This document shows, piece by piece, positions 23,490-51,669 of a DNA stretch of 64,000 nucleotides; positions within the stretch are counted from its first letter, which is position 1, and every line of letters begins with the position of its first letter. Both the position numbers and the translations under genes were made by a program. Source of the DNA: Symbiodinium natans (Eukaryota > Sar > Dinophyceae > Suessiales > Symbiodiniaceae). Location of the stretch: assembly GCA_905221605.1 (NCBI GenBank), contig CAJNDS010002634.1, forward strand, positions 2,096,229 to 2,160,228, given 5' to 3'. The notes below the pieces were generated by a model that searched no databases, was not told the origin of the DNA, and was given only the letters and a program-made list of their open reading frames with translations.

Positions 23490-23504
23490 AAGGGTAGGTT
23501 CGAA

Positions 23505-24705: not shown

Positions 24706-24719
24706 GTCAAGCAAAGATA

Positions 24720-27107: not shown

Positions 27108-27118
27108 CCTACAACCCT

Positions 27119-27424: not shown

Positions 27425-27571
27425 GCACTCACTTTGGAGTGAGCCCGCTCACCCCTGGAGCATCGTTGAAAATGAAAACTAGGCTGAATGCAAAGGTTGC
27501 CAAAACACAAACCAAGCACTTTGGGAAAACATGGATGAGAAGACTTCCCATAAAGAAAGCATGCCGTGGAC

Positions 27572-27664
27572 AAACTTGACTTTCTCGCTAGCAAGCACAA
27601 CTCTAGAGCCAAAATGACGCACGAACATAGTTTATAAAACATACATGAACAAGTACATGATACG
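27572..27664 (-). repeat. Terminal direct repeat A1 of element 1
   Basis: 93 bp matching 19068-19160 by eye without mismatch. It contains TCGCTAGCAAGCACAACT and, on the minus strand, CATTTTGGCTC. Confidence 0.95.
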
Positions 27665-28170: not shown

Positions 28171-29098
28171 TCAAATTATCTCAAGTAAGTGACCTACTGG
28201 TGTCCTGAAACACGGGGACTGAGTGGAGCTTGATCCCTGGGGATCACATAGTGCAACACCTTCTCCACTAGGCATGCCTTGCATTGAGCCTCGAACACGA
28301 TTCATGGCTCCACCGGTGGCACTGCAACTCAAGCCTTTCGCCTCGCTTTGACTCAGCAAGCGGATGGAACCTTGTGCACAAAACGACTGATGCCTGTACC
28401 CAATCGGAATGCTCGTACTTGCATCCGTCAAGCAAATGCCTTCACACTCAGGCTTCACGAACCATCCAGCTTTTGCAAGCTTACCTAGGCAAACCAAAGG
28501 ACTGGTAACCCCTGATACCACGAACCTCTCGTAGAACTTCAGTGGTCCTATGGTGACTTCAGCAATCCTCGTGTCTTGCACGCGTAGGGGATGACCCTGT
28601 GCATCAGTGTACTGGACGGATCGGGCATGGGGATCAGACACTCCTGCATTGGCGAAGGACAAGGGAAGAGCAGAGACATCTGCTCCAGAGTCCAGTATGA
28701 TGTCCACATTCCCTGACTGCAACACCTCAGGCACTTCTCGCACATGCTGATGCTGACACGTCAACATGCGAATTGCATAATCATCGGGCCAGTAGCCTGC
28801 TGCCACCTCATCTTGCATTCCGGACTCAAGATCACCCTCTGAAAGGTCATAAATCGTGAGATTCACTCGATCATCGTCATCCATGGTGTAGGCTTGTGTG
28901 CCGGAGAACGACACTCTCCGGACTGCGGCACTCTTGGCATTGGGATTCAAGGACGCTTGACTCAGGGCATTCAAGGACGATTGACTCGGGGCATTCACGT
29001 GGGAGCTCGAAGAAGATGCAGCTTCAGCTTGGGCGATTTGCTTTAGCTGGGGGCAATCACGCTTCCAGTGGCCGGATTGACCACAGTGCAGGCATGCG
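28171..29098 (-). pseudogene. Copia-like zinc knuckle and aspartic protease
   Basis: The frame contains the CCHC knuckle just upstream of MNAPSQSSLNALSQ. It then has an acidic linker and a retropepsin-like active site, NVDIILDSGADVSALP (D-S-G-A, flap region LRVQDTRIAEVTIGPLKF). It processes the Gag-Pol polyprotein in intact elements. The frame closes at 28171; a related fragment follows in another frame. Confidence 0.75.
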
Positions 29099-30413
29099 TC
29101 ACGACCTTTGCCTTGGCCTGGTCCACCTGATGCACCCTGCTTACCCCCACTTTTCTTACCCTTCTTAACTCCCTTAGGCCCTCCTTGACCCTTTTGGTGG
29201 TCCTTGCCTCCTCGTTTGCCTGCACCCCATTGACCCCTGCCACCTTTGCTGCCTCTGCCCTTTTTGCCATTTTTACCATCTCCATACTTGCCGCGCTTAC
29301 CATCTTACCACGTTTGCCACCCTTAGTCTCTTCATTAACCCGACTTATGTCCATTGGCGCTGGACCATTCGGATCAGCTGCATTGCTGGTTCCCAGCTCA
29401 AGGTGAACCCTGCTGTTCGACCAGGTGGTGGTCACGGACTCGTAATTCATCACGGCCTCACGTATGGTGTCATATGATGAAGATTCAGTCATTTGCAGCT
29501 GTATGTGTTGACGCAGGTGATTGGGCAACACACGCACAAGCACACCCATCTGCACGTCAGCACCTATTGCTGATCCAGATACCTTACGGTACTCATCCGA
29601 CACCCTTTCTAGAGCATTGACCTGCTCTCGGAAGCTTTTGTCTTTGGTGAAGGCTGGATATGACATGTAGGCACTAAGGAGTGCCAGGCTGCGTGCACGT
29701 GTGCGTGGGGCGTATACTGACTGCAGCTGCCTCCACAGCTCGAAGCCGTTCTGCTCAGGTATGGATCTTAATATGACAAGCGGGCGACCCTTGAGCAACC
29801 CTGAAAGGATCGCGTAAAGGCGTCGGGCACGGGGCTTGGTTGACTCAACCATGTCAGCGATGGTCACCACCACATGCGGACTGGTCTCTATGGTGGCTAG
29901 CTCCTCACCGTATTCAGGTTCTGCATAGATAAGCCATGATTTGAAGGAATGAGCGAACTCTTGCCATTTTGCAACGTCACTCTCATGTGAATCATTTCCC
30001 CCAAAACCTTCAGGATAACGCAACACCTTTGATGCATCACTGTAGCCTGCAAACTGTCTGTCACTCGCGGCACGCTGTGTGGCGGATGACATTTGCTGCA
30101 CCGCCTGTGCTGCACTATGCGCTGCCTGGCTGGCCGTTTGGATCAATGCAGCGACCTGACTCGGATCTGCGAGAACTACTTGGGGCTGTCCTTGCTGCAC
30201 ACCATCACTCGCTCCAATCTGGTGCATCTGAACATCTGGACCTGCTCCGGTCGGTGCGCCTGCTTCTGCTACGGTCTGACCTTGACCTGCAAGTTGGGCT
30301 TGTTGCTGGGCTTGCTGGGCTTGGTGGGCTGCCTGCTGCTGGGCAGCGTGCATTGCGGCTTGAGGATCCATTGTAGGAATGCTCGGACTTAGGGTGTGTA
30401 GGGGCTTCGGCAC
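29043..30413 (-). pseudogene. Copia-like Gag (frameshifted near its C terminus)
   Basis: A Gln/Ala-rich N terminus (residues about 12-120) precedes a Gag-type helical domain: EFAHSFKSWLIYAEPEYGEEL, LSGLLKGRPLVILRSIPEQ, GFELWRQLQSVYAPRTRARSL, FREQVNALERVSDEY, VRVLPNHLRQHIQLQM. After ETKGGKRGK a one-nucleotide loss near 29305 shifts the frame. In the restored reading the Gly/Lys-rich tail leads to the zinc knuckle C-L-H-C-G-Q-S-G-H-W-K-R-D-C (about 29045-29092), which is in the protease frame. In the annotated frame the tail is nonsense. Confidence 0.78.
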
Positions 30414-31155: not shown

Positions 31156-32962
31156 CTACCAAAACACATGTGGCCCAACGTGTAAAACGGGTGCACCAAA
31201 ATGTGCCCATGTAGCTATGTACCAACTTTTGCAGAAAGACATCTCAGCCACTGAGGCCACCTGAAAACCCAAAAGGTCGTCCACGTATAGGGCTTGGAAA
31301 TGCGCGATGTAAATCAGGAGGTGCAAAGTACGAACCAAGAATGCACCCAGTCGCGCAAACCAATACGCCGAAAAGGCCGCCCCAAAGGGGCAAACAGAAT
31401 AGAAGAAGAATGTATTGCCCACACGCACTCCAAGCAGGCCTTGTTCAGATCGGCGAACTCGAATGGATTTGTGCGCGGCTTTTACATCCAGTGACCATGC
31501 AGCAATTTGCTGCCTCAGGCCCCGTAGTGGCCAAGCGGACAGAATGGACTGTAAGGTTGGCAATGCACTTCGTTCTGGGATTGAGCAGGCGGCGTTCGTA
31601 CCACAAATGGAAGAATCTACCACCAGTCGAGGGTCCCTGCCTTCAGAATGGACGATGTTCATCTTGCCCACAGCGACCTGTGGAAAAAGCCGCTTCGCCT
31701 CATCAAGCGACTCAACTTTGTGCAACCAGCCCTTGTCAACCTCCTGTTGGACCAGTCGATCCAGAAGGACTGGATCGTCTTCGGCACTGCCAGTTCTCCT
31801 GGCAGACTTGCAATGACTCGTCCGTACCAGCTTTGCCTGACTGCGCCATGCATCCCGACGGTGGTATGTCGTTTTTGAAGCCAGTCGGGACACCATGCAA
31901 CAAACAGCTAAATAATGTAGTGTCCACATCCTGCAGGAAATGACTTAATGAAGCGAGTGCATGCAGGCAGTATGGCTGGCCTTCTGGAATGCTCCAATCG
32001 ACCTTTCCCATGTTCTCCGAGGAGAACCAAGCTGACAACTCGTCTCGCAGCTCCTGCGCCTCTTGCTCTGAAAACAATGGAGAATCTGACTTTGTCCGCA
32101 AATGTTCGCGCAAGCGCGAAAGAATAAGCTTCTTTCCACAAAATGACAATGTATGGCGCAACATTTTGAGAACATTGCTGCGACCCTTTGCCGGGCCGCT
32201 CCAATCTGGGTCCCGGTTGCTCTGCAGACCCCCACCATCTACCCAAGCGTGGGGAGCTGCTTCTAGCTCTTTCACCGGAATACATGCCCATGCACTCTCG
32301 ACCGACGCACCGCCCCGAGACTGGGATTTCGAAAACCCCATGCTGCGAAGCAAATTGCAAAGCGAAGCCTGCAGCTTCGGAGGGTATGCCAGTGATTTAA
32401 ACTGCAATGTACAACCACGTCGCATGCAAATTTCGCCAAAGCTGGCGAAAGCCTCGGAAGTTGTGACAAACAGCCATGCAGGTCCACAAGGCTCACCAAA
32501 GGCGCAAGGTGGTATCGACCCAATGCATCGTAGAAAAGATGATACAGAATGTTTGAAAAGGGGGGCATCCCAGCATGATGACCACGCTAAGACATCCACC
32601 ACCACATGTGCACCTGAATAGAAACTGACATGGCACAAATGCAAAGCCCACTCAATAGCAGACTGAGGCCACATACAATGAACTCGCGCCATGACAAAAG
32701 GGAAAACACCCTCCGCTGCCGCCCGAAAGACCAGATCCTTAACACCACTTTGCCCCACCGGATCAAACTTGACGAATGGCAAGGCCTCCGCGTCCAGTGC
32801 CTGAGCAGCAGACAAAACCGACTCGGTGAGGGAGCCAATAAAACTTGAATCCCGAGTTCTGGCCATAAAAAAAGTTGAAGCTTTTAAGCTTTTTTTTTCA
32901 AAGGTTGCTACTGGGCTTAATACAGCTGTCAGACTAGCAAGATAAAAACACATGTTGCACAT
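31156..32962 (-). mobile_element. Truncated DIRS-like retroelement 3 (methyltransferase C-terminal part and reverse transcriptase)
   Basis: Two overlapping minus-strand frames match the middle of element 1. Frame 31736-32962 has SIPPCAFGEPCGPAWLFVTTSEAFASFG, paralogous to PACAFGENWAKTWLFASSFQALSVMG in element 1, then the linker LHGVPTGFKNDIP. Frame 31156-31929 holds reverse transcriptase motifs RDPRLVVDSSICGTNAACS, AAWSLDVKAAHKS, VCPFGAAFSAYWF and ALYVDDLLGF (YVDD). RNase H, recombinase, Gag and motif I of the methyltransferase are missing. The copy is clearly dead, but it shows the domain order is shared by at least three elements. Confidence 0.8.
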
Positions 32963-33252
32963 GCAGAGTTACTTGAAGCTGCAAAGAACCCTTTTTGCAA
33001 AGCAGCGGCTGGCAATTGTAAGCTTGCACGAAATAAGGAGTAACAGGTCTGACACAACACAGTGACATTGACGGTGAAACTTGGTCTGACTTAGGAACTT
33101 GCCTGGCAAAGCCTTGACGGGAATGTTGCCTAGCAGAATCTTGTCGTACTGTTAGGAGCAGACAATCATCCGCGCTGCACTCACTCATCAGTGGCCTTAG
33201 AAACTGCAGCAAACTCAGGCAATGATGTGACGTTCAAAAAACCAGGACAAGG

Positions 33253-34935
33253 GGGCCTTCCATGCCAGAAGATGCTGGGTACCGACTGAAGAAGTGTTCA
33301 CTCGTCCAGTCTGACAGGCCACCTGCAGAAACCCAGCACGCGCATCAGCGCTTAGCCGTGCTGTCTGATGCCGGACCAAGGCGTGTTGGCCAAAATCTCG
33401 CAGGCCCTTCCCAGCAAAATCAGCCCCACACCCGGCCAACGGTGTAAGAACCGGCACTTTATACCTGGTCCGTGCTCGGTCCTTTGGTAGGGCGTCTGAC
33501 TCAGATGCAAGAAGCAGTTCATCAATTGAAATTTGACTGAAAGGATAATTGAATTTTCATTGTCGGACACACGCAAACTGCAAATAGGCGGGAGTAACAC
33601 ATGTGTGAAGCAGCAGTCGAAGTAATGGCCTTCCACGCCAGAGGATACTGGGGATCGTCAACTGGATAGATGTTCGTCCAGTCTGACAGGCCACCTGTGG
33701 AAACCCAGCACGCGCATCAGCGCTTAGCCGTGCTGTCAAACGCCGGACCAGGGCGTGTTGGCCAATGTTTCCCCAGACCCTTCCCAGCACCCTCAGCCCC
33801 ACACCCGGCCAACGATGTGAGAACCGGCACTTATACTTGGTCTGTGCTCGGTCCTTTGCGTCTGACTCAGAACCCAGCGGGCGAGAAATCTGACACTGTG
33901 CCACAATCACGTCCGTTTACTTGTATTTAACCAAAGCTGGAAAATCAAGCTGTCAGATCACTGACACTCGCAAAATTTCAAAGAGACGGCAGTAACAGTA
34001 GTAACACGTGTCAAGCGGCCTTCCATGCCAGAGGATGCTGGGTACCGACTGAAGAAGTGTTCACTCGTTCAAGTCTGACAGGCCACCTGCGGAAACCCAG
34101 CACGCGCATCAGCGCTTAGCCGTGCTGTCTGACGCCGGACCAAGGCGTGTTGGCCAAAATCTCGCAGGCCCTTCCCAGCACACTCAGCCCCACACCCGGC
34201 CAACGATGTGATAACCGGCACTTTATACCTGGTCCGTGCTCGGTCCTTTGGTAGGGCGTCTGACTGAGACCAAAAGCGACTGGCAAGCCTTCTCGTCCAA
34301 AGATTTAAAATTTGAGTCATTATTAATCATCTGACAGCATTCGCACACAACAGGCAAAACCTTGAATTTGCAGTCTCGGAAAAGCTACGACGACTTGTCA
34401 GAGCTAACAGACACACAGCCAGCAACCCCCAGCCCAAAAGCAGTAAGTCTGTAGGCCTTCCATGCCAGACGGTGCCGGGTACCGACACAAAGAATGTTGC
34501 ACTCATTTCTGTCTGACAAGCCCACTGCAGAAACCCAGCATGCGCATCAGCGCTTAGCCATGCTGTCAAACGCCGGACCAGGGCGTGTTGGCCAAAATTT
34601 CCGCAGACCTTTCCCAGCACACGCAGCCCCACACCCGGCCAACGATGTGAGAACCGGCGACTTATACTTGGTCCGTGCTCGGTCCTTTGGTAGGGCGTCT
34701 GACTCAGAAGCAAGCACCCGAGGAGTCTCACACTGTAGCAAGAAGCAAGTCCGTTCACTTTTCACCAGTCAGACGCCTGAGATTGTGTCTCACACGCACA
34801 ATGACAAAGCTGTAACAGGTGTCAAGCAGCAAATCAATGTCCAAGACTTACGACAGCCTTCCATGCCAGAGGAGGCTGGGTACCGACTGAAGAAGTGTTC
34901 ACTCGTCCAGTCTGACAGGCCACCTGCAGAAACCC
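33253..34935 (+). repeat. About 400-bp-period repeat array, left part
   Basis: Units start near 33254, 33627, 34017, 34454 and 34854 (GGCCTTCCATGCCAGAGGATG) and share a ~250-bp core: TCTGACAGGCCACCTGC, AGAAACCCAGCACGCGCATC, GGCGTGTTGGCCAAAAT, CCCACACCCGGCCAACG, and a terminal GGTCCGTGCTCGGTCC...GGTAGGGCGTCTGA. Spacers diverge more but often end in AACAGGTGTCAAGC. Minus-strand frames through the core are repeat translations and are not called. Element 2 interrupts the fifth unit. Confidence 0.85.
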
Positions 34936-35146
34936 TTACCGCTTGTTCCAAATTGGGTTTGAACCCAAAAGCCAAAAGCCTAACATGGAGACTCGCAAGA
35001 CACAAAGCAGGCGCTGCACGCCACTCACATTTTTTCATCAGTGGGCGAATCATTAATCACATCCTGTCACGTGCCGGTGCACACAACGCGGTGCACATAC
35101 ATTGCACATGCGTCTCACCATACCCTAGCGAACCTCAAGCCCCCTT
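34936..35146 (-). repeat. Split direct repeat B2 of element 2
   Basis: 211 bp, the outer 3' end of the element. It starts TTACCGCTTGTTCC next to the array sequence AGAAACCC. Confidence 0.95.
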
Positions 35147-35294
35147 TGAGGGCGAGGCAACTGTACATGCAACACTAATGGAAGTGCCGATGGCACACAG
35201 GGAGTTGCAGCCGCTTCAGCGGGCCCTGTTTGTCATGCCCTGGGTGGGCCGGGCGGGTCAAAATTTTTCACTGAGCTGTGGAGCCAGCGCTGCA

Positions 35295-35460
35295 CCCACA
35301 GAGCTCCAGCAAACGCATTTGCAAATTGTCGTTCGCAACACCAGGCATGTCAAGCATCAGAATCTTTTGGGTTACAAAACCAAGAACAAACGGCACACCG
35401 TTTTTCTTAGAGACATTTGGAAGCAATCGATAAAACACCATTCGCTCGCGAACAGTAAGC
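35295..35460 (-). repeat. Split direct repeat A2 of element 2
   Basis: 166 bp, directly joined to B1 at 35460/35461. The junction reads GTAAGC|TTAC, a perfect palindrome, with flanking GAACA and TGTTC arms. Confidence 0.95.
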
Positions 35461-35671
35461 TTACCGCTTGTTCCAAATTGGGTTTGAACCCAAAAGCCAA
35501 AAGCCTAACATGGAGACTCGCAAGACACAAAGCAGGCGCTGCATGCCACTCACATTTTTTCATCAGTGGGCGAATCATTAATCACATCCTGTCACGTGCC
35601 GGTGCACACAACGCGGTGCACATACATTGCACATGCGTCTCACCATACCCTAGCGAACCTCAAGCCCCCTT
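35461..35671 (-). repeat. Split direct repeat B1 of element 2
   Basis: 211 bp matching 34936-35146 with one mismatch seen (GCTGCATGCC against GCTGCACGCC). It overlaps the last codons of the RT/RNase H ORF by 12 bp. Confidence 0.95.
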
Positions 35672-37507
35672 ATTAGCCGACAGTCCAAGGCAGATGGCAT
35701 CCAGGTGCTCCGACACGTCGGAACACGGGACACTGATGCCACCCCACAGCAAGTGCTGGGACACCAGCCTTGACGGGTGATCTGCGCAGTTCGACGGGGA
35801 AGGGACGCGCGAGAACCAAGGGATGAACTCGCACCCAACTTCCAAGCCCACAAACATTTTAAGCAGATTTTTCACTATTGGGGACCTGCCCCGACAGGAA
35901 ATTAAAATATCCCTGACTGCATTGTTGTCGACGAAAGCCACAACAGGTGAGCGCGCAACCCTTTTGCCCCAAAGGCGGAACGCAAGCAGCACCGCAACAA
36001 ACTCCGCCTCCATTATAATTGTGTCCTTGTTAAGCTCACCTAGGAGCTTGCGGGCATCACTGCCAAGGGCGTGAGAGAAGCCAGCAACCAACACACCCTT
36101 GTCATCAAACAGGAGACCGCCCACGCCACAAGGCAGTACGGGGTCGTCCTTCGAGTAGGATGCATCAGTGAAGACATACCAGGTTTGCTGCTTGCTAACC
36201 TGGACTAGCCGAGGACGGCCGCTTTCCAACATGTCGACTAGAGAGCTGAAAGTGTCGATGCACTCAGCCGGCAGATCGGGAGGGGCACAACCGTGGGCAT
36301 ACTCCGAGAGCTGTTGCAAGCAAAATTTGCTCTGGCGTCCAAACAGCTGTCCACTTGCAAACTGAAGTTGGCCTCTCAGCTTGAGAGCTTGAGGCACACT
36401 CATACGCCGGTCCTTCTGGGCCTGCTTCATTGTCTCAACGAGGAGCTGAACTCTCTTTTCCGTATTGCAAATAGTCACACGACCCAAGTGGGCACTCGAT
36501 AGCACTATGTCAACTCCTAATGCACAAAAGGCTTCAGCAAACGGTACATCCTTCTTTCCACCCTGGGCCAGGTCCCATCCCAACAGGGTGAAGAGCAAGG
36601 TGATTGTTTGGTGCACATTGGCCACCTGTGTGCCTTTAGCAACCGACACGAAGTCATCAAAGTAGTGGGACCAGCAAAGGGCGAAAAAGAACGCGCCAAG
36701 ATGCCATATCGAGTTAACGGTTCTCAGAAAAGTCGACACCGACTTGACTGCCCCGAAAGGGAGGGCATGTAGCTGGAACACTACTACCCTCTTCAGGTCA
36801 GGATCCCACAGTCCAATGTACAAGGCCCAGGCCCCTGTAGGGTCCAGAGCCACATAGAACCTTCCCTTGAGACTACAACCTGGCTGCACTCGCATCAAAG
36901 ACAGGCACACGCCTGCGATGACGTCGACGGTCTGGGGGCGCACAGTCTCCAATGTCTCGACGGAGCTATTGATTCCTGACCCTGAGAAGTCGTCAATCAA
37001 CCTGACTTTCCCATCCATCCCGAACCTTCGAGATACGATGGCGTCAGGTGGTAGCTGGTCCACATCGATGGGACCTGACAACCAGCCCCTATCGCGCTCC
37101 TCGAGGGTTTTCGTTTGGACCTCGCGATCGAGGGACTCCCCCTGGGACTTGATAGTGGACAACAGGGCTGCCCTAGAGGTGGGGGCATCTCTTTTGAGTT
37201 GGTCGACCGTGACTGTCGCCGGCTTGAACTTCGGGGCAAACACACCTGTATCAGGCACCGGGCCTCCCAGGTTAGTACCTGAGATCACTTCATCGAAGAT
37301 GGAAACATCGTCATAGGAAGCCTCAATCATCATTGCCTTCCACAAGAGGAGACGCTTGGGCTTAAGGATCGTCGAGACCTGTTTGTGCATAGATGCCTTC
37401 AGTGCATCTTCCTCACTTCTGAGGTCTTGTGCAAGTTTGAGCCACTTTGCAAACTGGCGCGCCCTCAACCCGCACAGCTCCGACTCTGTCACCGAGGCAT
37501 GGTGCAC
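35660..37507 (-). CDS. Reverse transcriptase and RNase H of element 2
   Basis: 615 codons in one frame. The N-terminal ~130 residues link to the polymerase: DAIVSRRFGMDGKVRLIDDF, RFYVALDPTGAW (motif A Asp near 222), LHALPFGAVKSVSTF (motif B), HYFDDFVSV (motif C, YFDD, 281-286), and LKLRGQLQFASGQLFG (thumb). RNase H follows: WYVFTDASYSKDD (first Asp), DTIIMEAEFVAVLLAF (Glu), VVAFVDNNAVRDIL (Asp), and PSPSNCADHPSRLV (last Asp). All catalytic residues are present and the frame is intact. It starts 19 nt inside the methyltransferase stop region. Confidence 0.9.
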   Translation of the reverse strand: MHHASVTESELCGLRARQFAKWLKLAQDLRSEEDALKASMHKQVSTILKPKRLLLWKAMMIEASYDDVSIFDEVISGTNLGGPVPDTGVFAPKFKPATVTVDQLKRDAPTSRAALLSTIKSQGESLDREVQTKTLEERDRGWLSGPIDVDQLPPDAIVSRRFGMDGKVRLIDDFSGSGINSSVETLETVRPQTVDVIAGVCLSLMRVQPGCSLKGRFYVALDPTGAWALYIGLWDPDLKRVVVFQLHALPFGAVKSVSTFLRTVNSIWHLGAFFFALCWSHYFDDFVSVAKGTQVANVHQTITLLFTLLGWDLAQGGKKDVPFAEAFCALGVDIVLSSAHLGRVTICNTEKRVQLLVETMKQAQKDRRMSVPQALKLRGQLQFASGQLFGRQSKFCLQQLSEYAHGCAPPDLPAECIDTFSSLVDMLESGRPRLVQVSKQQTWYVFTDASYSKDDPVLPCGVGGLLFDDKGVLVAGFSHALGSDARKLLGELNKDTIIMEAEFVAVLLAFRLWGKRVARSPVVAFVDNNAVRDILISCRGRSPIVKNLLKMFVGLEVGCEFIPWFSRVPSPSNCADHPSRLVSQHLLWGGISVPCSDVSEHLDAICLGLSANKGA

Positions 37508-38298
37508 ACCGCATCTTTGAGAACCTGCGGCAAGGCGACCTCGAGAGTTCTGGGATGGCCAGCCTTAACTGCCTCACGGACAAACTGTTCCGGGGAAAAG
37601 GGAATACCCCAAACAAGCTCGTTCCAGAGCTCAGAACCAGCACCACAACCCTTGCCCCCGGAGCCAACACTCGAACTCCCCTGCTTAACCGGGACAATTT
37701 GCAGTAGTTGGGCCTCGGCTGGCACCGAGCGCTCGGGGCAGACGGCCACGTGTGGCAGTGGCCACGGGTCCTTCAGGCGGGCACGCAGGGGGACGGGACA
37801 GGAGACATGAGGGGGGATTCGTCCCCGCAAAATGCGAGCATGTTCGGGCACACGGGGCCCCGTCACAGAGGCCTTCGGCTGACTGCCGACCTGGCCACGG
37901 ACAAGCGACAGCTGGAGTCCTGTAGGCGAGAGCGGCCGGGGCGGGCAAGCCTGAAAGAAAGCCTGGGCGAGAGCACGGGCCAGTGGCAGCGGATACGCAG
38001 CTTCCAACGAAGTAGAAAATCCGTTAGGCGCTTCCGGCGCCACCCCCCACGGCAAGTGACGTTGGGCGCAGGAGTGCCCGGGGCAGGACTTGCAGATGCC
38101 GTCAAACGCACCTCGAGTATACGCAATAGCCGTCCACTTGGGACGACGGCTGCCATATGCGCAACTTTGGAATGCAGTGAACTGAAAGAGGTGCGCGATT
38201 CGTGCAAACATGGAAGTGCGCCAGTAGAAGCTTTGCCTGGGGTTCTCCACACCGATGACAAGGGCGCGGGAAGCAGCTTCAAGGACCAGGTCGGACAC
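37489..38298 (-). CDS. Methyltransferase C-terminal part of element 2
   Basis: This continues the domain after the frameshift: SDLVLEAASRALVIGVENPRQSFYW (motif VI-like E-N-P), FQSCAYGSRRPKWTAIAYT (a conserved-looking C-x-Y-G-x-x-R-x-K-W-T block), HLPWGV, and AYPLPLARALAQAFF. It then has a ~120-residue linker ending TLEVALPQVLKDAVCTMPR. The stop overlaps the next ORF start by 19 nt. The overall fold looks like a class I SAM methyltransferase with cytosine-5 features (P-P-C and E-N-P). Substrate DNA or RNA cannot be decided from sequence. Confidence 0.62.
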   Translation of the reverse strand: MSDLVLEAASRALVIGVENPRQSFYWRTSMFARIAHLFQFTAFQSCAYGSRRPKWTAIAYTRGAFDGICKSCPGHSCAQRHLPWGVAPEAPNGFSTSLEAAYPLPLARALAQAFFQACPPRPLSPTGLQLSLVRGQVGSQPKASVTGPRVPEHARILRGRIPPHVSCPVPLRARLKDPWPLPHVAVCPERSVPAEAQLLQIVPVKQGSSSVGSGGKGCGAGSELWNELVWGIPFSPEQFVREAVKAGHPRTLEVALPQVLKDAVCTMPR

Positions 38299-39515
38299 AC
38301 ATAAAGCTGATTTGCCAAGGTGACCCGGAGAAGGGCCTGCCCACCCAGCTGCGGCAACCCGTTCGGAAACTTTTCCGAGCGGAGAGGAGGGGGTCCAGGA
38401 ACCCCTTTAATTTCTCTCGCTCGGCTGGCAGTCCCACACGGTGGAGCGAACCAAATGCCCACGCAGTTGCAACGTCGAACCAACTCGACGCCTTCTGCAG
38501 CACACAAGTCGACAAGATGAACATGACAGGCGGCGCCGGGCACGCGCTTATGGTCGACAGCGACGGCATCAAACCCAAGTTGCTTGAGGCAGGCTGAGAG
38601 CCTGGACATGCCGGAAAAGACCTCAATAATGAACGGGGGTCTGGAGGACGTCTCACTGGCAGACGGAGCGGGCACCTGCGTAGGCTCCGGCGCGGTGCTC
38701 ATGACTGTTGGAACGTCCGACAGTGCTGGAAGGAAGTCCGGTGGCAGGGGAAAGCCAAGCTCAAGGAGGGCTTGGGGGACCTCAAGCTTGACTGAGGGCA
38801 TATGAGGCAGCGCATATGCTACCAGGACTACGCGACGGCCTTGCCATGGTTCAGTCATATGCCAGTGGTCCCTGGCAGGCAGCTCGAGACAGCCATTCTC
38901 GAAATTGAGCACACGTCCCTGGACCGGAGAACCTTGGACAGGTCGAACGTCGTGCCCGGGGCCTTCACACCACACACCGCCCCCAGAGAAGTTGGAGAGC
39001 TTGAACACAAGATTGGGGGTCGGCCCGTTGTGGGAATCGCGATGAGGCTCAGTGGGGATGTCACAAAATATGGCCAGAGAAGTGAAAACCGCAGCCGGCC
39101 GGCGTTGCCGAATGAACGCACAGAGGACCTGCGCGACCTTTGGGAAGCGAGAAACATTGGCCCGAAGGCCCAGCACACCCCCTCTCCGGTACATACCAGT
39201 GAAGAACGAGCTGCCGGAAGCAGCCTTGTGGGGAGCCTCGTGCGGAAGAAGCTCCCACAGGGAGAGCACAGAATGAGATCCAATGAGTTGGCCCTGCAAA
39301 AGTTGCTCAGCAAGTTCTTCAGGGTCATTGAAAGCAGCACATGAATTCAGCTGGGAGGTTGGCTCAGGAGCGAGGGAAACTGGGGGCTCAGCCGTAACAT
39401 TGTGCACAGATTGACTGACCACAACGGGAGCCTCAGATCCAGTTTCCCCAGGCGGCGGAACGGCTGTCAACACGGGCTCTTCCGAAGTTGAGCCAGCAAG
39501 CCCCGCCTCCAGCAC
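38279..39515 (-). CDS. 2OG-Fe(II) oxygenase-like plus methyltransferase N-terminal part of element 2
   Basis: Residues numbered from 39515. 90-240 form the oxygenase-like domain: PHRD (H158, D160 as the H-x-D metal pair), NLVFKLSNFSGGGVWCE, DHWHMTEPWQGRRVVLVAY (second His near 219, Arg near 227). After a Pro-rich linker, the methyltransferase-like domain starts at 295: FIIEVFSGMSRLSACLKQLG (motif I), AVAVDHKR (ribose-binding acid), and IWFAPPCGTASRARE (motif IV with P-P-C at 358-360). The reading continues to LANQLYV, where an extra TG in a GTGTG run near 38300 shifts the frame into 37489-38298. The first frame stays open to 37863, but that tail looks out of frame. Confidence 0.7.
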
Positions 39516-39521
39516 TGACTG

Positions 39522-40715
39522 TCACTCCTTGTGATCCCGGATGGGGTGCGGTTGGAAACACTTGCAACACAGGTGCTTGCGGGGGCACGTGGCGGCGGAA
39601 CACTTGCACTTGTCCCCATGCAGATTGTAATCGAAACATAAGGGCTCACCCGTAGGAGCATTGGCCACACCACCTTTCTGGAGGATCTCTTTTGGGACGC
39701 GAGCGGTGAGGGAATACTTGCCTTTGCCTTTGCCACCCCCCTTGGGGCCACCCTTGATCTTTTTGTCTCCAGGCTCGAGCTTTCGCTTGAGCTCACGGCG
39801 CTCTTTGTTCCCATTGCCTTGCTTTTGTGGAAGCGGCATCAAGGCCATTGAGACATGGTAGCTTTCAAGTGCCGAGATTAACGCATCATCCATCGGGAGG
39901 CTTCCGTCTGTGGCTGCGCGCGGTTGAACTCCCAGTTCAATCAGGCGGACAAACACTTGTCGATCGGCTTCCACCAACTGTGCAACAGAGCAACGCGCAA
40001 AACCCGGAGGAGGCTCCCTGTGAAGATTGCTGAACAGGCGGGAGATGTACTTCTCGTAGGCATTGAAGGAGAGGCACTGAGCAAACACATAGGCAATGCC
40101 CCTGCGACGAAGTGCCTCTTGGACTTGCAACGCGCTATGAGTTGGCATACTCATGGCATCATCCGTTTCTTTGATCACCAGCTTGGAACTTTCAAGTTCC
40201 AGCTGGCGGGATGCACCTCGGGAGTGGGTGACTTCGTGCGTTCTTGAGACACAACGATCAGGGCTGAGGTACTTCAGCTGGTTGGCAGATTCCTGCCTGA
40301 CGCAGTCTTCCAAGACGCATCTCCCGGGTTCCATGCCTCCTTCAATGAGCACACCCGGAAGCCGACCCCTGAGGTGTTGCAAACGCCTGTCCCGTTCCGC
40401 CTCCGGCATTTTCCTGGAGGCTCCTTCTGGATCGGAAACTTGCAGGCGCAAGTCAGCCAACACCAAGGTTTGCGCTTCGAAGACTAGGCGGCGTATGCAG
40501 GCCTTGCCAGCCGCATTGGCTCCAGGCGTGGTAGTTGTGCAGAAGGCATTGAAGGCTGACTCAGGAATGACCTGGCCAGGCTGGCCCACAGCATAAGCCT
40601 GTTGTCCCAGGCTAGTGAACCCACCAACACGAAGCTCCGCTAGCACATCATCGGTGCATTTGATCTCGCGGGCGCGCTGGATGAAGTGGGCCTCAGACTC
40701 AATCAAGGAAGACAT
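39522..40715 (-). CDS. Gag-like protein of element 2 with Cys/His zinc-binding C terminus
   Basis: 397 codons, uninterrupted, starting MSSLIESEAHFIQRAREI. It is mainly helical (RRLVFEAQTLVLADLRLQV; LQVQEALRRRGIAYVFAQCL; VAQLVEADRQVFVRLIEL). A basic Gly/Lys-rich segment (GDKKIKGGPKGGGKGKGK) precedes a Cys/His-rich end, LCFDYNLHGDKCKCSAATC, followed by CCKCFQPHPIRDH, which looks like a CCCH-type finger plus knuckle. It has the same position and design as Gag of element 1, with little obvious sequence identity, so the two elements are old relatives. It stops at TGA 39522-39524; the next ORF continues in the same frame two codons later. Confidence 0.75.
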   Translation of the reverse strand: MSSLIESEAHFIQRAREIKCTDDVLAELRVGGFTSLGQQAYAVGQPGQVIPESAFNAFCTTTTPGANAAGKACIRRLVFEAQTLVLADLRLQVSDPEGASRKMPEAERDRRLQHLRGRLPGVLIEGGMEPGRCVLEDCVRQESANQLKYLSPDRCVSRTHEVTHSRGASRQLELESSKLVIKETDDAMSMPTHSALQVQEALRRRGIAYVFAQCLSFNAYEKYISRLFSNLHREPPPGFARCSVAQLVEADRQVFVRLIELGVQPRAATDGSLPMDDALISALESYHVSMALMPLPQKQGNGNKERRELKRKLEPGDKKIKGGPKGGGKGKGKYSLTARVPKEILQKGGVANAPTGEPLCFDYNLHGDKCKCSAATCPRKHLCCKCFQPHPIRDHKE

Positions 40716-41153
40716 GGCACGGGAAACTACGCTGCTCAGTCGAAGAAGAAATCACACCTGATCACATCAAATGCGCAACATGGTAGAAGACACAGTACAA
40801 ACACCACACAACACTGTGCACCACAAGTAACATGTCCGCTCTCTACACTGCGAGCCTGGGGTTGAAACATCACATTCACAACCCAACACGCACATGCTGA
40901 ATGCGTGGCCCCTGGGCCCCCATTGCCCATAAAGCCCCTTGGCTAGGCATTGGCACCATGTGCCACAAGGCTCATAAGGAACCATGTCCTTGCCTTGAAT
41001 CCAACAATCCGACATCTAGTCGGCAACAGCACAAACTGCAGCTCACATTTCCTCACATTAGCCCATGGGCACACATGTCGCTACCATGTAGCAATCTCTT
41101 TTCTTCGCCATAGCGATAGGAAACGAACACAAACTTCCTCCAACCACACCGCA
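40716..41153 (-). other. Non-coding gap between recombinase and Gag in element 2
   Basis: About 440 bp with no convincing coding. It is equivalent in position to 24720-25076 of element 1. Confidence 0.45.
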
Positions 41154-43643
41154 TCACAGGTTGCGCTTACATGTGCGACACTCCGGATTCATAAGATCCT
41201 CCTCTGAAGGCAAGACATACATTGCCGTGCGTGGGCGCCCACACACAAGAATGTTGTCGCCATAGGCATGGTGAAGAACTCCAGATCTGGAGTGTTTTAC
41301 CCATGTACCAGTGCCTTGTACAGGGTTCACACTGGGAACAGCCGCCCGGTCGTCAACACGCACGGGGTCGCGCGAAGTTTGCGATTCACTTGACCCCGAC
41401 GACTCACTCGAGCTATCGGAGGAAGATGACTCTTCTTCACCGGAGCTTTCAACCTTGATAGCAGGTGTCAAAGAGGCATTAAGGTTTGCCTGAGTTGACA
41501 ACAAGCCCTTGCCCTGCATTGGCCCGTCTGGGGGAGGCGGCTGAGGAGGGAACGCCCACATTTGCCCCCGAGCTGCATCAGGAGAAAACTCAAGCTGTCT
41601 GATGGCATCCAAGACTGTTTCCATCTCCCGCACGGGCCCCATGCTTAGCTCAACAGAGTACACAGCTTCAGTTCCTTCAACAGCTGTGACATGCCTGCCC
41701 AAACAAGATCGAACCTCCTTCTTGGATCCAGCCTTGCTGGTCCAAGAGATGCACGTTCTCTTCAAGCTGTGCGAGGACACAGCATTATCTCTAAGTGCGA
41801 GCCTCAAGAAAGTTGAAACTTCCCCCGACGTAATGGCCCTGCGAGCCAGCACCCCACTGGCTAGTGGTGGACGGAAAAGCGCAGCACCAACATGCCCTTG
41901 CAGCAGAAGAATGATTCGAACCACTCATGATCCGAGATTCCACGCAACGGAATCAAGATTGGGAGCAGCTGAGCGACCCTTCTGGCTGCCCTGGCAGTTT
42001 TATGCTGCTTGACCCGGATCACCACGTAGCCATCACGACCTTCTCCATCCACGTCAACGTATGCCACCTTGCGGAAATCAGATTGTCTAGCACGTGCATA
42101 CAAGCACAAAAGGCAATATCCAGCAAAGGCCCGATCCCAATCCGAGGTACCTTGTCCATGCAACAGCGAATGAAGGATGCGAACTTGCGCCACGGTGAGT
42201 GGGGGCGCTTGCTTGAGGTCCCCAAGGTTAGCCAACATACGCTCAGCTGCACCAACACACTTGCGGCTTATTTTGTTAGGAATGTTAGTAACATCCATCA
42301 CGAAATAAGCAAAACGCAAGGCGGACAAGAAGGAAGAGGCTTTGGATGGCGGGGCCTGCGAGCCATCCAGGAACTGCATGTACCTCCAGAACATGTCATC
42401 AGTGAAGGGGTCGAGGTTGGCACCAACAATGGTATCAAACCACCTCAGGAACGTGAGGATGCTACCTGCTCTCTTGGAGGCTGTTCCTGCGGCCCTCGAC
42501 CCAATGCATGCCTCCAAAGCCTGTGGATCAACCTCGCACTCCGGGCGCAGCTTGCGGTTTCTCTGCATGATTACGATCCACTTATCAACTGCAAGCCTCA
42601 CCGCTTTACGTTGCTGGGCATCAACGTCCACATCGGAGAGGACCTTGAAAACAGTTGACGCAAGGTCTCCAGGCACGAACGGCTCCTGCGGTTCATCCAA
42701 GGAGGCGAATGGATTACACGGAGGCGATTGAGGAGTCCAGACTTCCGCCTCACGCATTGAAAGGGGTGGCATTTTAAGCTCTGAAGACACCGAGGACTCA
42801 CCAAAGATTGCACTAACAGCAGGCAGCTCCCACGGCAACACAACGTCAGACAAGCCCCCATCCGCTAAACGTACAAAGTTGTCGGCAAATACATCACCCA
42901 CGGTGCGTGCCACTTTTGCTGGAGGCTCGCTAACAGTAAGTTTCTCAGTCTCGGCTAACTGAGAGTCTTCCCCAGTGGCGTCATGTTCTGCTGACTGACT
43001 CAACAGATCATCACGCGCACATGACCGGCATGAGGTATGCTCAGAGCTGAGCTCAGACATGTCAGGGTTGACGTCAACCATAAAGTCTTCCACCGCCGAG
43101 ACAGGGGAGTTTTCATCTCCCCAATCTAGGGCATCAGCTTCCGCATCCGACGGCCTTGGCAACACCAACAACGGCCCAGAGGACTGCACGCTAGACCCAA
43201 AGGGGGGGAAATCGAGGTGAGCAATAGGAAGGACTGGCGGTCCATCATCTTCGCTGACATGGCCGACCGAAAAATCATCCCCCTCTATATCCGGCAGACC
43301 CTCTGCAGACATGTCAGCAGCAAGAAGGCAGTCAACCTTGCAGAGGAAGGAGTTGGCGGTAACACGACTGCACCCAATGGGCAGCAGCACTGAACTGGTT
43401 CCAGTCAGACACCGTGAGGCAGAGAAGGAACCTGGCCCCTTCACTCCGACTAACGAGGAGGCCACGGAAGCTGGGTTCAACAATGTAGCTGAAAATATCA
43501 GGCGGCGCCTCAAGGCGGCGTTGAAGGTCAGGCACGTGATAGTGCAGGGGTCGAATGCGAACAGGCGCAAAGACAAAGGATGGCACAGGCACTCGAAAGT
43601 CGTCTGATGACGACGTGGATGCACTGGATGCTGAAAGGTCCAT
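41154..43643 (-). pseudogene. Tyrosine recombinase of element 2 (frame-split)
   Basis: A plausible start is MDLSASSASTSSSDDFRV (43643), with a frameshift near 43.33 kb into the main frame (alternative start MSAEGLPDIEGDDFSVG at 43312). A long acidic N-terminal region leads to a core-binding domain (AVDKWIVIMQRNRK; ILTFLRWFDTIVGANLDPF; SFLSALRFAYFVM). The catalytic part has Arg in LYARARQSDFRKV and Lys in RVKQHKTARAA. A frameshift near 41.9 kb follows, then HSLKRTCISW, CLGRHVT and Tyr in VYSVELSMGP. As in element 1, H-x-x-K replaces H-x-x-R. A Ser-rich tail (SGEEESSSSDSSSESSGS) follows. Confidence 0.82.
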
Positions 43644-43690
43644 CCAACCCCCCGATCACGGGGAAGCTTGCACGAAACTAAAGTCTTAGC

Positions 43691-43856
43691 CCCACAGAGC
43701 TCCAGCAAACGCATTTGCAAATTGTCGTTCGCAACACCAGGCATGTCAAGCATCAGAATCTTTTGGGTTACAAAACCAAGAACAAACGGCACACCGTTTT
43801 TCTTAGAGACATTTGGAAGCAATCGATAAAACACCATTCGCTCGCGAACAGTAAGC
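43691..43856 (-). repeat. Split direct repeat A1 of element 2
   Basis: 166 bp matching 35295-35460 by eye with no mismatch. Its outer end is GAACAGTAAGC. Confidence 0.95.
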
Positions 43857-44710
43857 AGCACGCGCATCAGCGCTTAGCCGTGCTGTCTGACGCCGGACCA
43901 AGGCGTGTTGGCCAAAATCTCGCAGGCCCTTCCCAGCACACTCAGCCCCACACCCGGCCAACGGTGTAAGAACCGGCGCTTTATACCTGGTCCGTGCTCG
44001 GTCCTTTGGTAGGGCGTCCGAATCACCAGAAGCGGCGGCTACATATACTACGGACGCATTGCCATTGCTGGCCAGCATGTCTAAGAAATAATACGCTGGC
44101 AGGGACTCGCCATACGGGCAAGAAGCTTGACAGAACTATCACTTTCAGCACGCGTATGGTTTATTTCAAGAACGCAGGCAAACCAATCAAACAGCATTGA
44201 CAGACAGTACTAGACTCACTAGACAGGATCTGGCCTTCCATTCTTGAGCTGCTGGGTACTACCGCCAGGGCCAAATGAAGACTTGGACATGCAGAACGCT
44301 GCACTCATTCATGTCTGACCTGCAGAAACCCAGCACGCGCATCAGTGCTGAGCCGTGCTGTCTGACGCCGGACTAGGGCGTGTTGGCCGAAGTTTCCCCA
44401 GGCCCTTCCTCAGCCCCACTCCTGGCCAACGATGCGGCGTTTTCATAAAGGTGGTCCGTGCTCGGTCTGTTGGTAGGGCATCTGGGAAAAGTCTTACTGA
44501 GCAGTTGTGTGCATACTGTGTCACTCAGCACGACAAAATCAGAAATCAAAAATTAATTTGGCACTCATTCATTAACCTGTGTCAAGCAGCAGACTTATGG
44601 CCCTGGCCTTGCAAGAATGCCGAGGACTCGACATGTTCACTTGTCTGACAGGCCACCTGAAGAAACCCAGCACACACATCAATGTTTAGCAGTGCTTTCA
44701 GACGCCAATC
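43857..44710 (+). repeat. About 400-bp-period repeat array, right part
   Basis: It begins AGCACGCGCATCAGCGC, which directly continues the unit broken at 34935, followed by a full degenerate unit (44232-44490) and a partial one (about 44618-44706). Confidence 0.85.
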
Positions 44711-46430
44711 TACGACATGTTCCCCCGAGAAATCTGAGACTGGCCATGGGGTGGGTGAGTGTGAGGAGCCGTGCAGGGAAATGAGGGTGTACGTCAGGGT
44801 AACGACAGTTGGTGAGTTTGTTCATCAAAACTGCTCACAGACACAGTACATTGGATTGATACCACAGTTCATGACCATGATACGTTTCCCAAGTTTGAGG
44901 CGGCTTGTCAGAAAGATGCACATGCACTGAAGGGCTGGTTTTGCCAAGCTGCTCCCTTCAGGGTTTTGGGGGGAAGGTGTTTTGATTTGTGTCATTCACT
45001 CTGACTGTCCCTCTAAATGCTCCAGTTTCTCTGACAGACTCACAGCCACTGCCACTCGCTGTCACCGACTCCATCCAGTCGGCCGAGTCGGGCCTTTGCC
45101 AGCAGCGTTTTTAAAACGCTGCCAGAATTCTGCGCACACACACTGCCCTGGCTGGCTACTACACGCGGCAACCATGTCTGACGTGCCCTGCAAGCACCTG
45201 TGCTATTCCAAGTCTGACTGCTTCCCGTCTCAGGGAGGATGACATGATCCGTCGTCTCACAGGAAGTGCCATTCCTCCTGCCATGTCCTCCTCCTCCTCG
45301 TCCACAGCCAACCGGTTCTGGAGCGCAGGCAGAACGATCGTATGGTGCCGATGAAGAACAATACCCGAATGTGTCCGACATCGGTGTAGACAGGGTAGTA
45401 GTGCGTGCGCGTCCCCCGAGCATGTCTGGAAGCTCTTGCTGAATGCAGCCCGCTGGTCTGAAGCAGAGGTCCCATCGTCGGATACCTGCGTCTGACGCAC
45501 AGGCGAAGTCCATGAGCAGAATCTGGCCTGATGTTGTCATTGACCACAATCCCCATGCTCTGCGATTTGTGCGGGTGCGGCGAAAGAAGATGCGGCCGTG
45601 GAGTGGTGATCGTGCATGCCTTCGCTCCAGCAACAACCACTCGTCCCTCCTTCCAGAACCCTGGTGGTAAAACTTGAACAAGAAGACCTGACAAGGCGGC
45701 ATGCTGACGCTTTGCCCAGGAAGGAGGCCAAGTTGACAGGCACACTTGGGGGTTTCTTAAAATGGTAGAGGGCGGCGGGCCGAGCAGGCAATTGCTAAGT
45801 TACTGCATACATGCACAATGCTGCTGCAAAATGCAACCCCTACACACAACGCACGAACCATGAGCGTTCTCCAACCGTCATGGACCGTCATGGGCTTCCC
45901 CCAAACCCAGGTGGTAGCCTTGACAACAGGGCCTGCGTTCTTCAGTTTTCTCTTTGCCCTCCAGTGAAAGTTCAGGAGCGGTTCCGTGAAGTTTGGGCCA
46001 AGGCACAAGCTGAAGCGGAGATTGCTTTTAGTTAGAGCCTCGGATGCGATATCTGACTGTCGAAGACTCTCATTGGTGCCGCAACGATAACGCTCATGGG
46101 TTTGGAGGTGTGATTATGGACGCTCATGAAGGCCCACAACGGTCCATGACGGTTGCACAACCCTTATAGACGCTTGTGGGGCTTTGGGGAAAAGGATGCG
46201 CCGCCAGGGGTTTGGATTGCTTTGACCTCTTAGGCCTCCGGGGCCTGGGCGTTTAAGGTTCGCCTTGGTTGACGCAGTTGTGTGGGGAGTCTTCTGACAT
46301 GTCCGCCGTATTGGAGCACCCTGAATCGTTCCAGGGCTTTTGAAATTGTGGATCAGGGTTCAGGATTTCTGGCTCCGTCGAAACGGAAGGGCTTGAATCA
46401 TGGCGATGGTAAACCCTAAACCCTGATCCC
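44711..46430 (-). other. Unassigned region with overlapping open frames
   Basis: Minus-strand frames at 45040-45702 (220 codons) and 45257-45745 (162 codons) overlap. Neither shows a family motif; the first includes an acidic/Gly-rich GRGGGGHGRRNG segment. One may be a decayed gene. Near 45874-45894 and 46136-46156 are isolated copies of the AACCGTCATGGACC unit that forms the minisatellite at 58.8 kb. Confidence 0.35.
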
Positions 46431-46740
46431 GACCTCACCCTTAACCCCGAACCCGAACAATTGAACGCGAATCACTAGGCAGGGTTTAGGGGTTTAGGCA
46501 TTAGGATTCAAGCGTTAAGGGTTTAGGTTCAGGGGCTGAGGGAAAAGAATTAGGGGTTCAGGAGTTCGGCATTCAGCCTCGAGGGAGTCCTTTTTGAGCT
46601 CATCTTGTGACTGAAAAACGGAAAAATCTCCTTGCAACCCGAGTGCCATATTCTGCAAACAGTTCCTGTAGGTAGTGGTCTCCGTTCGCATCATCATGGC
46701 TTCCTGCTTGGCCTGGCTAGCTCTGTGTGTGTGTGTGTGT

Positions 46741-47650
46741 GTGTGGCACACCGCTGTACATGCGGGCTCGTGAACAAACAGAAAATCAGCAGGGGGCAGG
46801 AGCACGGCCATGGGTCTCCTGCTAACAAAGACGCCCATGGTTCGTGGTGAAGCAGTTGGAGACGTCCAACTGTGTACCTGCGTGATTGTCTTAGACATCC
46901 TGTAACGCAAGCTGTGCATGGTGCATCATCGCTGTTGCTTCAACCAGTCCTTCAAGAACGAGATTTTCATTTTGGACATTTGGTATTTGAGCATGGGTGA
47001 ATTCTTGGTGCCGTGAGCATGACATACCCCAAACCCCAGAAGACCTCGAGCCCATCAAGCTTGACTGGAATGTGATGCATGAGCATGTCTTCTGAGCATG
47101 TTGTCGGAGCATGTCCAGCGAACGAGCATGAACATGGACGAGAGCATGGAGAAGGTTCGGAACATGAGTGTTAGAGCATATGAGCATGCACTGTGGAGCA
47201 TCGGAGCGCGATGAGCAGAGTTGCGGGAGCATGAAGTGTGTAGCATCAGAGCATGACTTGCAGAGCATCTGAGCGTGATGAGCAGAATTGTGCGAGCATC
47301 AACTGTGGAGCATCAGAGCATGAATTGTAGAGCTTCTGAACGTGGTGAGCAAGCTTGTGTGAGCATGAGTTGTGGAGCATCGGAGCATGACTTGCAGAGC
47401 ATCTGAGCGTGATGAGCAGAATTGGGTGAGCATAAACTGCGGAGCATCAGAGTGTGAATTGTAGAGCATCGGAGCGTGATGAGCACAGTTTGCAGAAGAC
47501 CCTAAACCCTATATGATATGTCATATAAACATCCATTCGCGACCCTTCTACCTCATCACTCACGAGCTCATCCACTACCTCTTGATTGAGCATGTCCTTC
47601 TCCAGCAGATCTCCAACTACATGAATATGTGGAACACTAAAACAAAAAGT
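46741..47650. repeat. 910-bp segmental duplication, copy 1
   Basis: It aligns with 51670-52579 at a constant offset of 4929 bp. Copy 1 is preceded by a short GT repeat (46722-46744). It contains a GAGCATG-rich region (about 46990-47490) of loosely tandem units such as GGAGCATCAGAGCATGA. Confidence 0.92.
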
Positions 47651-51110: not shown

Positions 51111-51669
51111 GGCAAACCCTCGCCCTTAACCCTCAACCCCAAACCCCAACGCTTACAGCCAGAGCTTGGAGAATGTGGCCCTGCAGGAGCCCTACTACCA
51201 CCCATATCTGCACTAGCAACAATTTTCCTCTTTTCGGTCAATGTTCATTTTCAAAAACGAGTCCAGTACTATGGCCACTACCTCCAGTCTCTTGGATTGG
51301 AGAGCTTTCGGGCATCCAGATCCTTGAGTTTCAGCGGCTTCACCTCATATAACATTTCACATAGCACGTAACCCTAAACCCCACACATGAGCAACCACGT
51401 CTTCCAGTAGCAGAACATCCACCACATCAACCTCTTCGACTTCCAGTTCGTCTACGTCACCTTCACGAACGTCAACTTCGGCCACATCTACTTCATCCAG
51501 CAGGGATTAGGGTTTAGGGTTTAGGGCTTAGGGTTCACATCTTCGACCTCGACGTCACCGAACACCAGCTCATCAAGCTCGACGTCGTCGACTTTTACGT
51601 CTACAAACAGTATCAGCGCCAGCGCAACCCTAAACCCTAAACCCTAAGACGACGCCCCGAAAGGGGTGT
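51111..51669. other. Decayed array flank
   Basis: Contains more fragments of the array subrepeats (GTCACCTTCACGAACGTCAAC, GACCTCGACGTCACCGA) and TTTAGGG/CCCTAAA units near 51507-51530 and 51630-51648. No gene. Confidence 0.6.

Follow-up and report, generated by a model that had tools for sequence, protein, structure and literature searches.

What kind of mobile element lies between positions 34936 and 43856 of the 64,000-nucleotide stretch of Symbiodinium natans DNA analysed here (the window, G000:C2322:2096229-2160228), and is the order of its genes, with a tyrosine recombinase (YR) ahead of Gag and of the reverse transcriptase (RT), the trait of a lineage or of a single rearranged copy? We consider it highly probable that the locus holds a dead copy of a YR retrotransposon lineage with the organisation A1-YR-Gag-(UGA)-Pol[2OG dioxygenase, C5-methyltransferase, RT, RNase H]-B1-A2-spacer-B2, in which A and B are split direct repeats and 2OG stands for 2-oxoglutarate, and that the lineage works in the way proposed below.

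Ends, repeats and genes of the window copy

The element and its parts, listed from its 5' end, are as follows (ORF, open reading frame; MT, methyltransferase).

34936..43856, minus strand: whole YR retroelement insertion, 8,921 bp, delimited by the A/B repeats and empty-site reconstruction
43691..43856, minus strand: repeat A1, 5' end of the element, 166/166 bp identical to A2
41861..43312, minus strand: first piece of the YR ORF, from a possible ATG (MSAEGLPD); the stop-to-stop ORF is 41861-43873
41154..41924, minus strand: second piece of the YR ORF, past a copy-specific frameshift, with HSLK, GRH and Y motifs
39525..40751, minus strand: Gag ORF, stop to stop, first ATG at 40715, zinc-knuckle-like Cys/His C-terminus
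39522..39524, minus strand: in-frame TGA between Gag and Pol, putative readthrough codon; the next codon is CAG
37863-39521, minus strand: stop-to-stop ORF with the oxygenase and the first half of the MT
38742..39344, minus strand: 2OG/Fe(II) dioxygenase domain of predicted AlkB/TET-like fold, HxD at 39033-39047, distal H near 38860 (alignment, model and fold search)
37489-38406, minus strand: stop-to-stop ORF with the second half of the MT
37717..38642, minus strand: predicted C5-cytosine MT-like domain, motif IV PPCGTASRAR, motif VI ENP, end approximate (alignment, model and fold search)
35660-37564, minus strand: stop-to-stop ORF with RT and RNase H
36215..37237, minus strand: RT domain, YFDDF at about 36650, bounds approximate (RVT_1 match at E 0.0073; homologues)
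35663..36214, minus strand: RNase H domain, C-terminus of Pol, bounds approximate (motif reading; conserved with RT in homologues)
35460-35671, minus strand: repeat B1, overlapping the Pol stop at 35660-35662
35295..35460, minus strand: repeat A2, 166/166 bp identical to A1
35147..35294, minus strand: 148-bp spacer between A2 and B2
34935-35146, minus strand: repeat B2, 3' end of the element; base 34935 may be flank

B1 and B2 are 99.5% identical over 212 bp, and B1 and A2 have one base in common, 35460. The element was inserted into an array of ~390-bp repeats. When the flanks (34855-34935 and 43857 onward) were joined by script, they aligned without gaps to the repeat unit 33255-33504, with 8 mismatches in ~249 positions, and to the unit from 34018 with one 1-base and one 2-base gap, neither of them at the junction. 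Since the joined flanks restore an intact array unit, the insertion is exact and without target-site duplication. The flanks of sister copies vary from copy to copy and, inspected by eye, also show no such duplication. The B1/B2 pair was present in 20/20 fetched sister loci and the A1/A2 pair, of about 200-211 bp, in 14 of them; in the other six the stretch fetched does not show A1. A1 starts with (A)(A)GCTTACTG in those 14 loci and in the window copy, and B2 ends in AAGCG(G/A)TAA in the window-family loci inspected, L009 excepted. No inverted repeats of at least 30 nucleotides (nt) were found in 33000-46000, where split direct repeats are present instead, and thus the element is not DIRS1-like in the strict sense. 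The presence of RT/RNase H and of a YR inside the element, the split repeats and the absence of target-site duplication place it among the YR retrotransposons (order DIRS in the broad sense).

In the window copy, a frameshift at about 41861-41924 breaks YR in two, Pol undergoes two frame changes, with an MT frameshift near 38300, and RT motif A, kept in 20/20 sister loci, is absent. In sister copies YR is one unbroken ORF of 733-756 amino acids (aa; 7 copies), and the Pol ORF, likewise single, reaches 1,326 aa. The frameshifts are thus peculiar to the window copy, which is structurally complete and coding-dead for YR and Pol. A coding-dead copy with nearly identical repeats suggests either a recent insertion or mobilisation by relatives. 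The sequence-only reading of this locus had described a nearly complete element delimited to the base. The identity of the repeats and the gapless empty site bear out the limits, and the DNA structure bears out the completeness, but the genes do not. Its repeat order A1-ORFs-B1-A2-B2 stands with the correction that the spacer parts A2 from B2, and the minus-strand ORFs reproduce its gene order, namely recombinase, Gag, oxygenase-like, methyltransferase-like, RT and RNase H.

Profile databases recognised little of this coding content. Pfam returned only the weak RVT_1 match for the window ORFs, the rest lying at E 0.01 or worse and being taken as chance, and NCBIfam returned no match for them. 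RVT_1 matched the intact Pol of sister locus L031 at E 1e-5, under Pfam's cut-off score, and the window RT protein is 91% identical to Symbiodinium natans protein P0002. The RNase H domain, without a Pfam match, was named from motif reading. Pfam matched neither a DDE integrase nor an aspartic protease in the scanned ORFs, where it also misses the YR, MT and dioxygenase. The catalytic set of tyrosine recombinases is R-K-HxxR-H/W-Y; the YR has conserved H-S-L-K, G-x-H and Y motifs, it shows the R, H, H and Y of the set but a Lys at the place of the second Arg, and its best PDB profile match, a weak one (E 0.19), is an integrase.

Gene order across the genome

The genome searched was a 759-Mb assembly of 2,543 contigs. 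The RT search gave 70 matches from 820 candidates, of which 70 were scored; the figure is a lower bound that counts matches and not copies (two copies are split in two), and 44 of the 70, window included, were at least 88% identical. These 70 matches were crossed, with a 12-kb limit, with the best 67 of 103 YR matches; the 36 YR matches left out share four contigs with RT matches and lie at least 17 kb from them. A YR was found upstream on the same strand for 55 of the 70 listed RT matches, and downstream or on the opposite strand for none. The remaining 15, the window copy among them, had no listed YR within 12 kb. YR was likewise upstream of Gag on the same strand in 18/20 fetched sister loci, the stretches fetched for L010 and L018 containing neither gene. 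The YR sits within the A1...B1-A2-B2 repeats, between A1 and Gag. Its position upstream in 55 matches and downstream in none shows that it belongs to the element. Moreover, two gene models, P0165 and P0128 (S. natans, Symbiodinium sp. CCMP2592), read by motif as YR-Gag-oxygenase-MT-RT, and the YR-first order is also found in families about 35% identical.

These results support the view that a YR-first order is fixed in a large lineage and did not arise by rearrangement of one copy. The earlier proposal of a distinct lineage, which had looked to many YR-first copies for support and to a YR behind RNase H or from a neighbouring element for refutation, is therefore upheld as regards rearrangement, but the order may not be new, as discussed below for SymbioDIRS-Dnmt3. 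The protein P0118, of 1,946 aa, reads by motif as RT-RNase H-oxygenase-MT-YR in one chain, and the oxygenase-MT pair thus also occurs in a YR-last architecture.

A second element of the window, Element 1 (about 19068-27664, minus strand), has by motif reading the order YR-Gag-TGA-oxygenase-MT-RT, as had been claimed for it. Its A1 and A2 are identical over 93 bp, and a B pair was not found in it. Its divergence from the element studied here is so strong that, at E 1e-3, no region other than the oxygenase matches. Contig C250 carries a 100% identical match to the Gag-oxygenase stretch of Element 1, indicating a duplicated or allelic block, and in several family members the Gag-TGA-Pol frame is open over 1,805 codons if the TGA is read through. 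A fragment of a third YR-type Pol, with the MT end and RT, lies at 31156-32968 on the minus strand and resembles Element 1 by motif reading. Elsewhere in the genome, L030 (G000:C2260) and L018 (G000:C1989) have internal deletions with the A/B ends kept and may be non-autonomous derivatives mobilised in trans; in L018 the later part of the oxygenase-MT region directly follows A1.

The paired Pol domains and the Gag-Pol junction

The dioxygenase domain is a 2OG dioxygenase by its predicted fold and HxD...H residues, and the MT domain is a C5-cytosine methyltransferase by its predicted fold and catalytic motifs, in agreement with the base-modification domains first read from the sequence. The fold search placed the dioxygenase model nearest to AlkB/ALKBH/FTO/TET enzymes; AlkB/ALKBH entries lead the list, with NgTET1 within about 1 Z unit at a root-mean-square deviation of 5.4 Å, and the 2OG subfamilies missing from that list provide no evidence of absence. 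The MT model matched M.HhaI, DNMT1 and DNMT3, including DNMT3A/B, and its catalytic P, C and E, P residues are invariant in 6/6 aligned sequences. When PDB sequences were searched with alignments of the dioxygenase, MT and RT, no usable relatives emerged, and a scan of viral_contigs with an MT-RT profile gave no relative. In a protein search for the oxygenase, the L031 Pol query retrieved 136 proteins and the L029 Pol query 4, probably because the proline-rich N-terminus of the latter draws candidates.

Selection on each domain was measured as the ratio of nonsynonymous to synonymous polymorphism (pN/pS), pooled over 19 window-family copies with L010 and L018 left out. The values were 0.07 for RT, 0.09 for RNase H, 0.11 for Gag, 0.12 for the oxygenase, 0.14 for the MT and 0.15-0.16 for YR (17-19 copies), and the control, which lies 5' of the presumed YR start, gave 1.19 (15 copies). 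Every domain is under purifying selection, and the values for the oxygenase and MT indicate that both extra domains are kept by selection.

Gag and Pol were found in one frame, with a single TGA between them and Pol open directly after it, in 11 families. The families were defined by the last ~70 Gag residues, a pair at 79% identity being merged and the others sharing about 20-50%. In the window family, the single in-frame TGA was present in 19/19 copies with a Gag end, the window counted and L010, L018 and L030, which have no Gag end, not counted; L029, L031 and Element 1 have the TGA junction too. TGA was also found in 16/16 junctions fetched on purpose and in 4/4 more, the degenerate L040 carrying a second stop further on. 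Of the matches spanning the junction by at least 5 residues on each side, 41/41 had the TGA and 38 had no other stop, and a separate match set had it in 29 of 30 junctions. The thirtieth (C2426) was considered as a TGA-free exception and rejected, since a frameshift in this copy puts the TGA in a different frame. A stopless Gag/Pol fusion in the C602, C423 and C2256 families was rejected as well, as their open frames read TGA as Trp and all junctions show TGA. The 3,382-aa open frame of C2004 also has a TGA at the Gag end (L049).

In 5 of the 11 families (L029, C602, C1989, C2195 and C2365) the TGA is followed by the codon CTA, and in 7 families the base that follows it is C; some sister copies of the window element have CGG. 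As background, CTA follows 9 of the 2,276 TGAs of the window (0.4%; any frame, both strands). With 12 families, the pair unmerged and independence assumed, the chance of at least 5 CTA families is 7e-10, and that of at least 8 with C next is 0.002. CTA makes up 4% of the leucine codons in two Gag-Pol frames, yet the post-TGA leucines are CTA in 5/5 cases, which points to selection acting at the RNA level rather than on the amino acid. The terminal stops of YR and Pol never precede CTA in the window family, L029, L030 (Pol only) and L031; they are mostly TGA, with TAA for L029 YR and TAG for L030 Pol. UGA CUA has been described as a high-readthrough consensus in human cells (PMC4359377). Residues 1-100 of Pol past the TGA have a pN/pS of 0.45, against 1.19 in the 5' control. 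The junction thus combines a conserved in-frame stop, a favoured 3' context and coding selection after the stop, and the conserved TGA with its recurrent CTA context suggests that Gag-Pol is probably made by UGA readthrough.

In the working proposed for the lineage, one RNA would carry the whole element. Its first ORF would give YR and its second mainly Gag, while a minority of ribosomes would pass the UGA and produce Gag-Pol at a low ratio, as in some retroviruses. RT would complete the ends via the B1-A2 junction, as in the PAT/Ngaro model, the Pol methyltransferase would methylate cytosines of the linear or circular cDNA, the dioxygenase would oxidise or remove the base mark, and YR would insert the cDNA without target duplication. 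The readthrough, the enzyme activities and their substrates, the circular intermediate and the timing are the parts of this model that we infer. In a more specific version, the readthrough polyprotein, with its C5-methyltransferase beside the dioxygenase, would write and then oxidise a base mark on the element's own cDNA before YR insertion, making 5-methylcytosine and turning it into 5-hydroxymethylcytosine, or else making 5-hydroxymethyluracil, a base abundant in dinoflagellate DNA; this version is offered tentatively, as one possibility that we hold to be doubtful.

Alternatives, related elements and significance

Several observations weigh against parts of this account. In the YR, a lysine (HSLK) occupies the position where the second arginine of the tyrosine-recombinase signature is expected. 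The query-length TM-scores from Foldseek are modest (0.26-0.49), the alignments behind the models are shallow (10 sequences for the dioxygenase and 6 for the MT), and the dioxygenase is absent from some families and so is not essential to all. At the junction, the CTA statistic assumes independent families, which they are not fully, and since TGA is the usual stop at the YR and Pol ends, TGA alone is not special. The RNA 3' of the UGA showed no family-wide excess stability (z from -2.0 to +2.3, with overlapping controls), and the stem found close to the UGA in a few families is not significant. Finally, an ATG precedes HxD (residue 58-117) in 9/19 window-family copies, and one lies 15-120 codons past the TGA in most other families.

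Such ATGs could serve a Pol made independently of Gag, through reinitiation or from a trans-spliced or internally promoted RNA of its own, the Gag TGA being a plain terminator. Dinoflagellate mRNAs are described as trans-spliced, and in Candida Tca2, where Gag and Pol are also parted by one UGA stop, the junction sequence alone was reported to give no readthrough and to have promoter activity (PMC2194720). However, Pol is open and in the Gag frame right after the TGA in 11/11 families (even if L040 has a second stop), its residues 1-100 are constrained relative to the control, its first ATG lies beyond HxD in 10/19 copies (among them 4 of the 8 whose open Pol reaches at least 1,225 aa), and the CTA context recurs in 5 of the 11 families, so that we regard separate translation as quite unlikely. 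A recoded UGA, read as selenocysteine or another amino acid, would account for its presence at every junction inspected, but in most of the copies examined YR and Pol likewise end in UGA, the window (AT-rich island included) has no Rfam match at gathering thresholds, and the CTA context fits leaky termination; recoding therefore appears very improbable, and readthrough is the explanation we prefer.

As for the identity of the element, the YR is a separate ORF that ends about 400 nt upstream of Gag, as might be expected if it came from a neighbouring element such as a Crypton or another YR element. That origin was rejected and is considered extremely unlikely, given the counts of 55 and 0 among the 70 listed RT matches, the place of the YR inside the repeats and the same order in the distant families. 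More weight is due to SymbioDIRS-Dnmt3 (de Mendoza et al. 2018, PMC5890265), described as a YR retroelement of the same host genus with A-coding-B-A-B repeats, a Dnmt3 under purifying selection in Pol, and two structures with shuffled domain/ORF (integrase/Pol) order. With a shuffled order already present there, the YR-first order in Symbiodinium may be covered by that 2018 description. The element could belong to this published family, its MT being a divergent Dnmt3, and the predicted MT fold indeed matches DNMT3A/B among others. On the other hand, PF00145, the domain with which that paper counts DNMTs, matched neither of two intact Pol proteins at E<=5, in a search where HMMER filters drop most matches above 0.1, so these proteins do not carry a PF00145-detectable Dnmt3. 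Likewise, 117 PF00145 matches were listed for the genome, where 123 of 276 candidates were scored, and not one of them comes within 10 kb of any of the 70 RT matches. The element further differs in the dioxygenase that precedes the MT in Pol and in its Gag-UGA-Pol junction, and the main text of the 2018 paper does not contain the words gag, dioxygenase, TET, AlkB or readthrough. Membership in that family thus seems to us rather unlikely, and the YR-first lineage with the dioxygenase-MT pair remains our preferred assignment.

In PAT-like and Ngaro-like elements YR is usually the last ORF, whereas it is the first here, and in gammaretroviruses Gag and Pol are separated by one stop. Tca2 and the gammaretroviruses are, however, long terminal repeat (LTR) elements, while the junction described here, UGA-CUA in 5 of 11 families, belongs to a YR retroelement. 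PAT-like and Ngaro-like elements share with it the A1-ORFs-B1-A2-B2 split repeats (a pattern cited in PMC6681497) and the lack of target duplication. VIPER-like elements of trypanosomatids also have A1...B1-A2-B2 split direct repeats, very close in size to those found here (A 173 bp and B 219 bp in T. cruzi), but their ORFs are Gag-like, YR and RT/RH, whereas here YR lies ahead of Gag, and the text available for PMC6681497 describes no C5-methyltransferase, dioxygenase or Gag-UGA-Pol for VIPER. Orchid Ty3/Gypsy elements with an AlkB domain (PMC9289625) and fungal DNA transposons with a TET/JBP dioxygenase (PMC12730594) are, like the present element, mobile elements with an AlkB/TET-type dioxygenase; they differ in being an LTR element and DNA transposons, and the available text of these sources mentions no C5-methyltransferase partner inside them. 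In the literature searched, as titles and starts of abstracts with few subscription journals, no YR retroelement with a dioxygenase or Gag-Pol readthrough is described. The newer content of this lineage is therefore the oxygenase-methyltransferase pair in Pol, missed by Pfam, together with the conserved UGA(-CUA) junction.

The window contains further features outside these elements. By motif reading, a LINE-like element with endonuclease-like and RT ORFs and a long poly-Gly stretch lies at 10538-16679 (minus strand), and a Copia-like Gag with a zinc knuckle and a protease-like DSGAD motif at 28171-30413 (minus strand). Two identical 914-bp direct repeats (46737-47650 and 51666-52579), 4.9 kb apart, are possibly the LTRs of a very recent insertion whose interior contains ~330-bp repeats, and a 1.63-kb direct duplication (53549-55177 and 55682-57310) has 99.7% identity. 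An AT-rich island with sharp bounds occupies 8200-10000 (GC 21-35%, against about 54% for the window), and interstitial telomere-like arrays of TTTAGGG type occur on both strands at 282-600, 1497-1840, 5106-5380 and 7143-7330.

Modification of dinoflagellate DNA is extensive: the Symbiodinium genome has been reported as mostly methylated at CG sites (PMC5890265), and 5-hydroxymethyluracil as enriched in Breviolum repeats (PMC11071213). A retroelement lineage in which a predicted C5-methyltransferase and a predicted dioxygenase of nucleic-acid type are both kept by selection would tie dinoflagellate DNA modification to a mobile element, and it offers two defined candidate enzymes for assay. If the element does mark its own cDNA, it would parallel, in a selfish element, the hypermodification of phage DNA. 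The Gag-UGA(-CUA)-Pol junction suggests that UGA readthrough may work in dinoflagellates. If read through, it would provide YR retrotransposons with a control of the Gag:Pol ratio like that of some retroviruses, and this lineage would be the first YR retroelement shown to use UGA-CUA readthrough.

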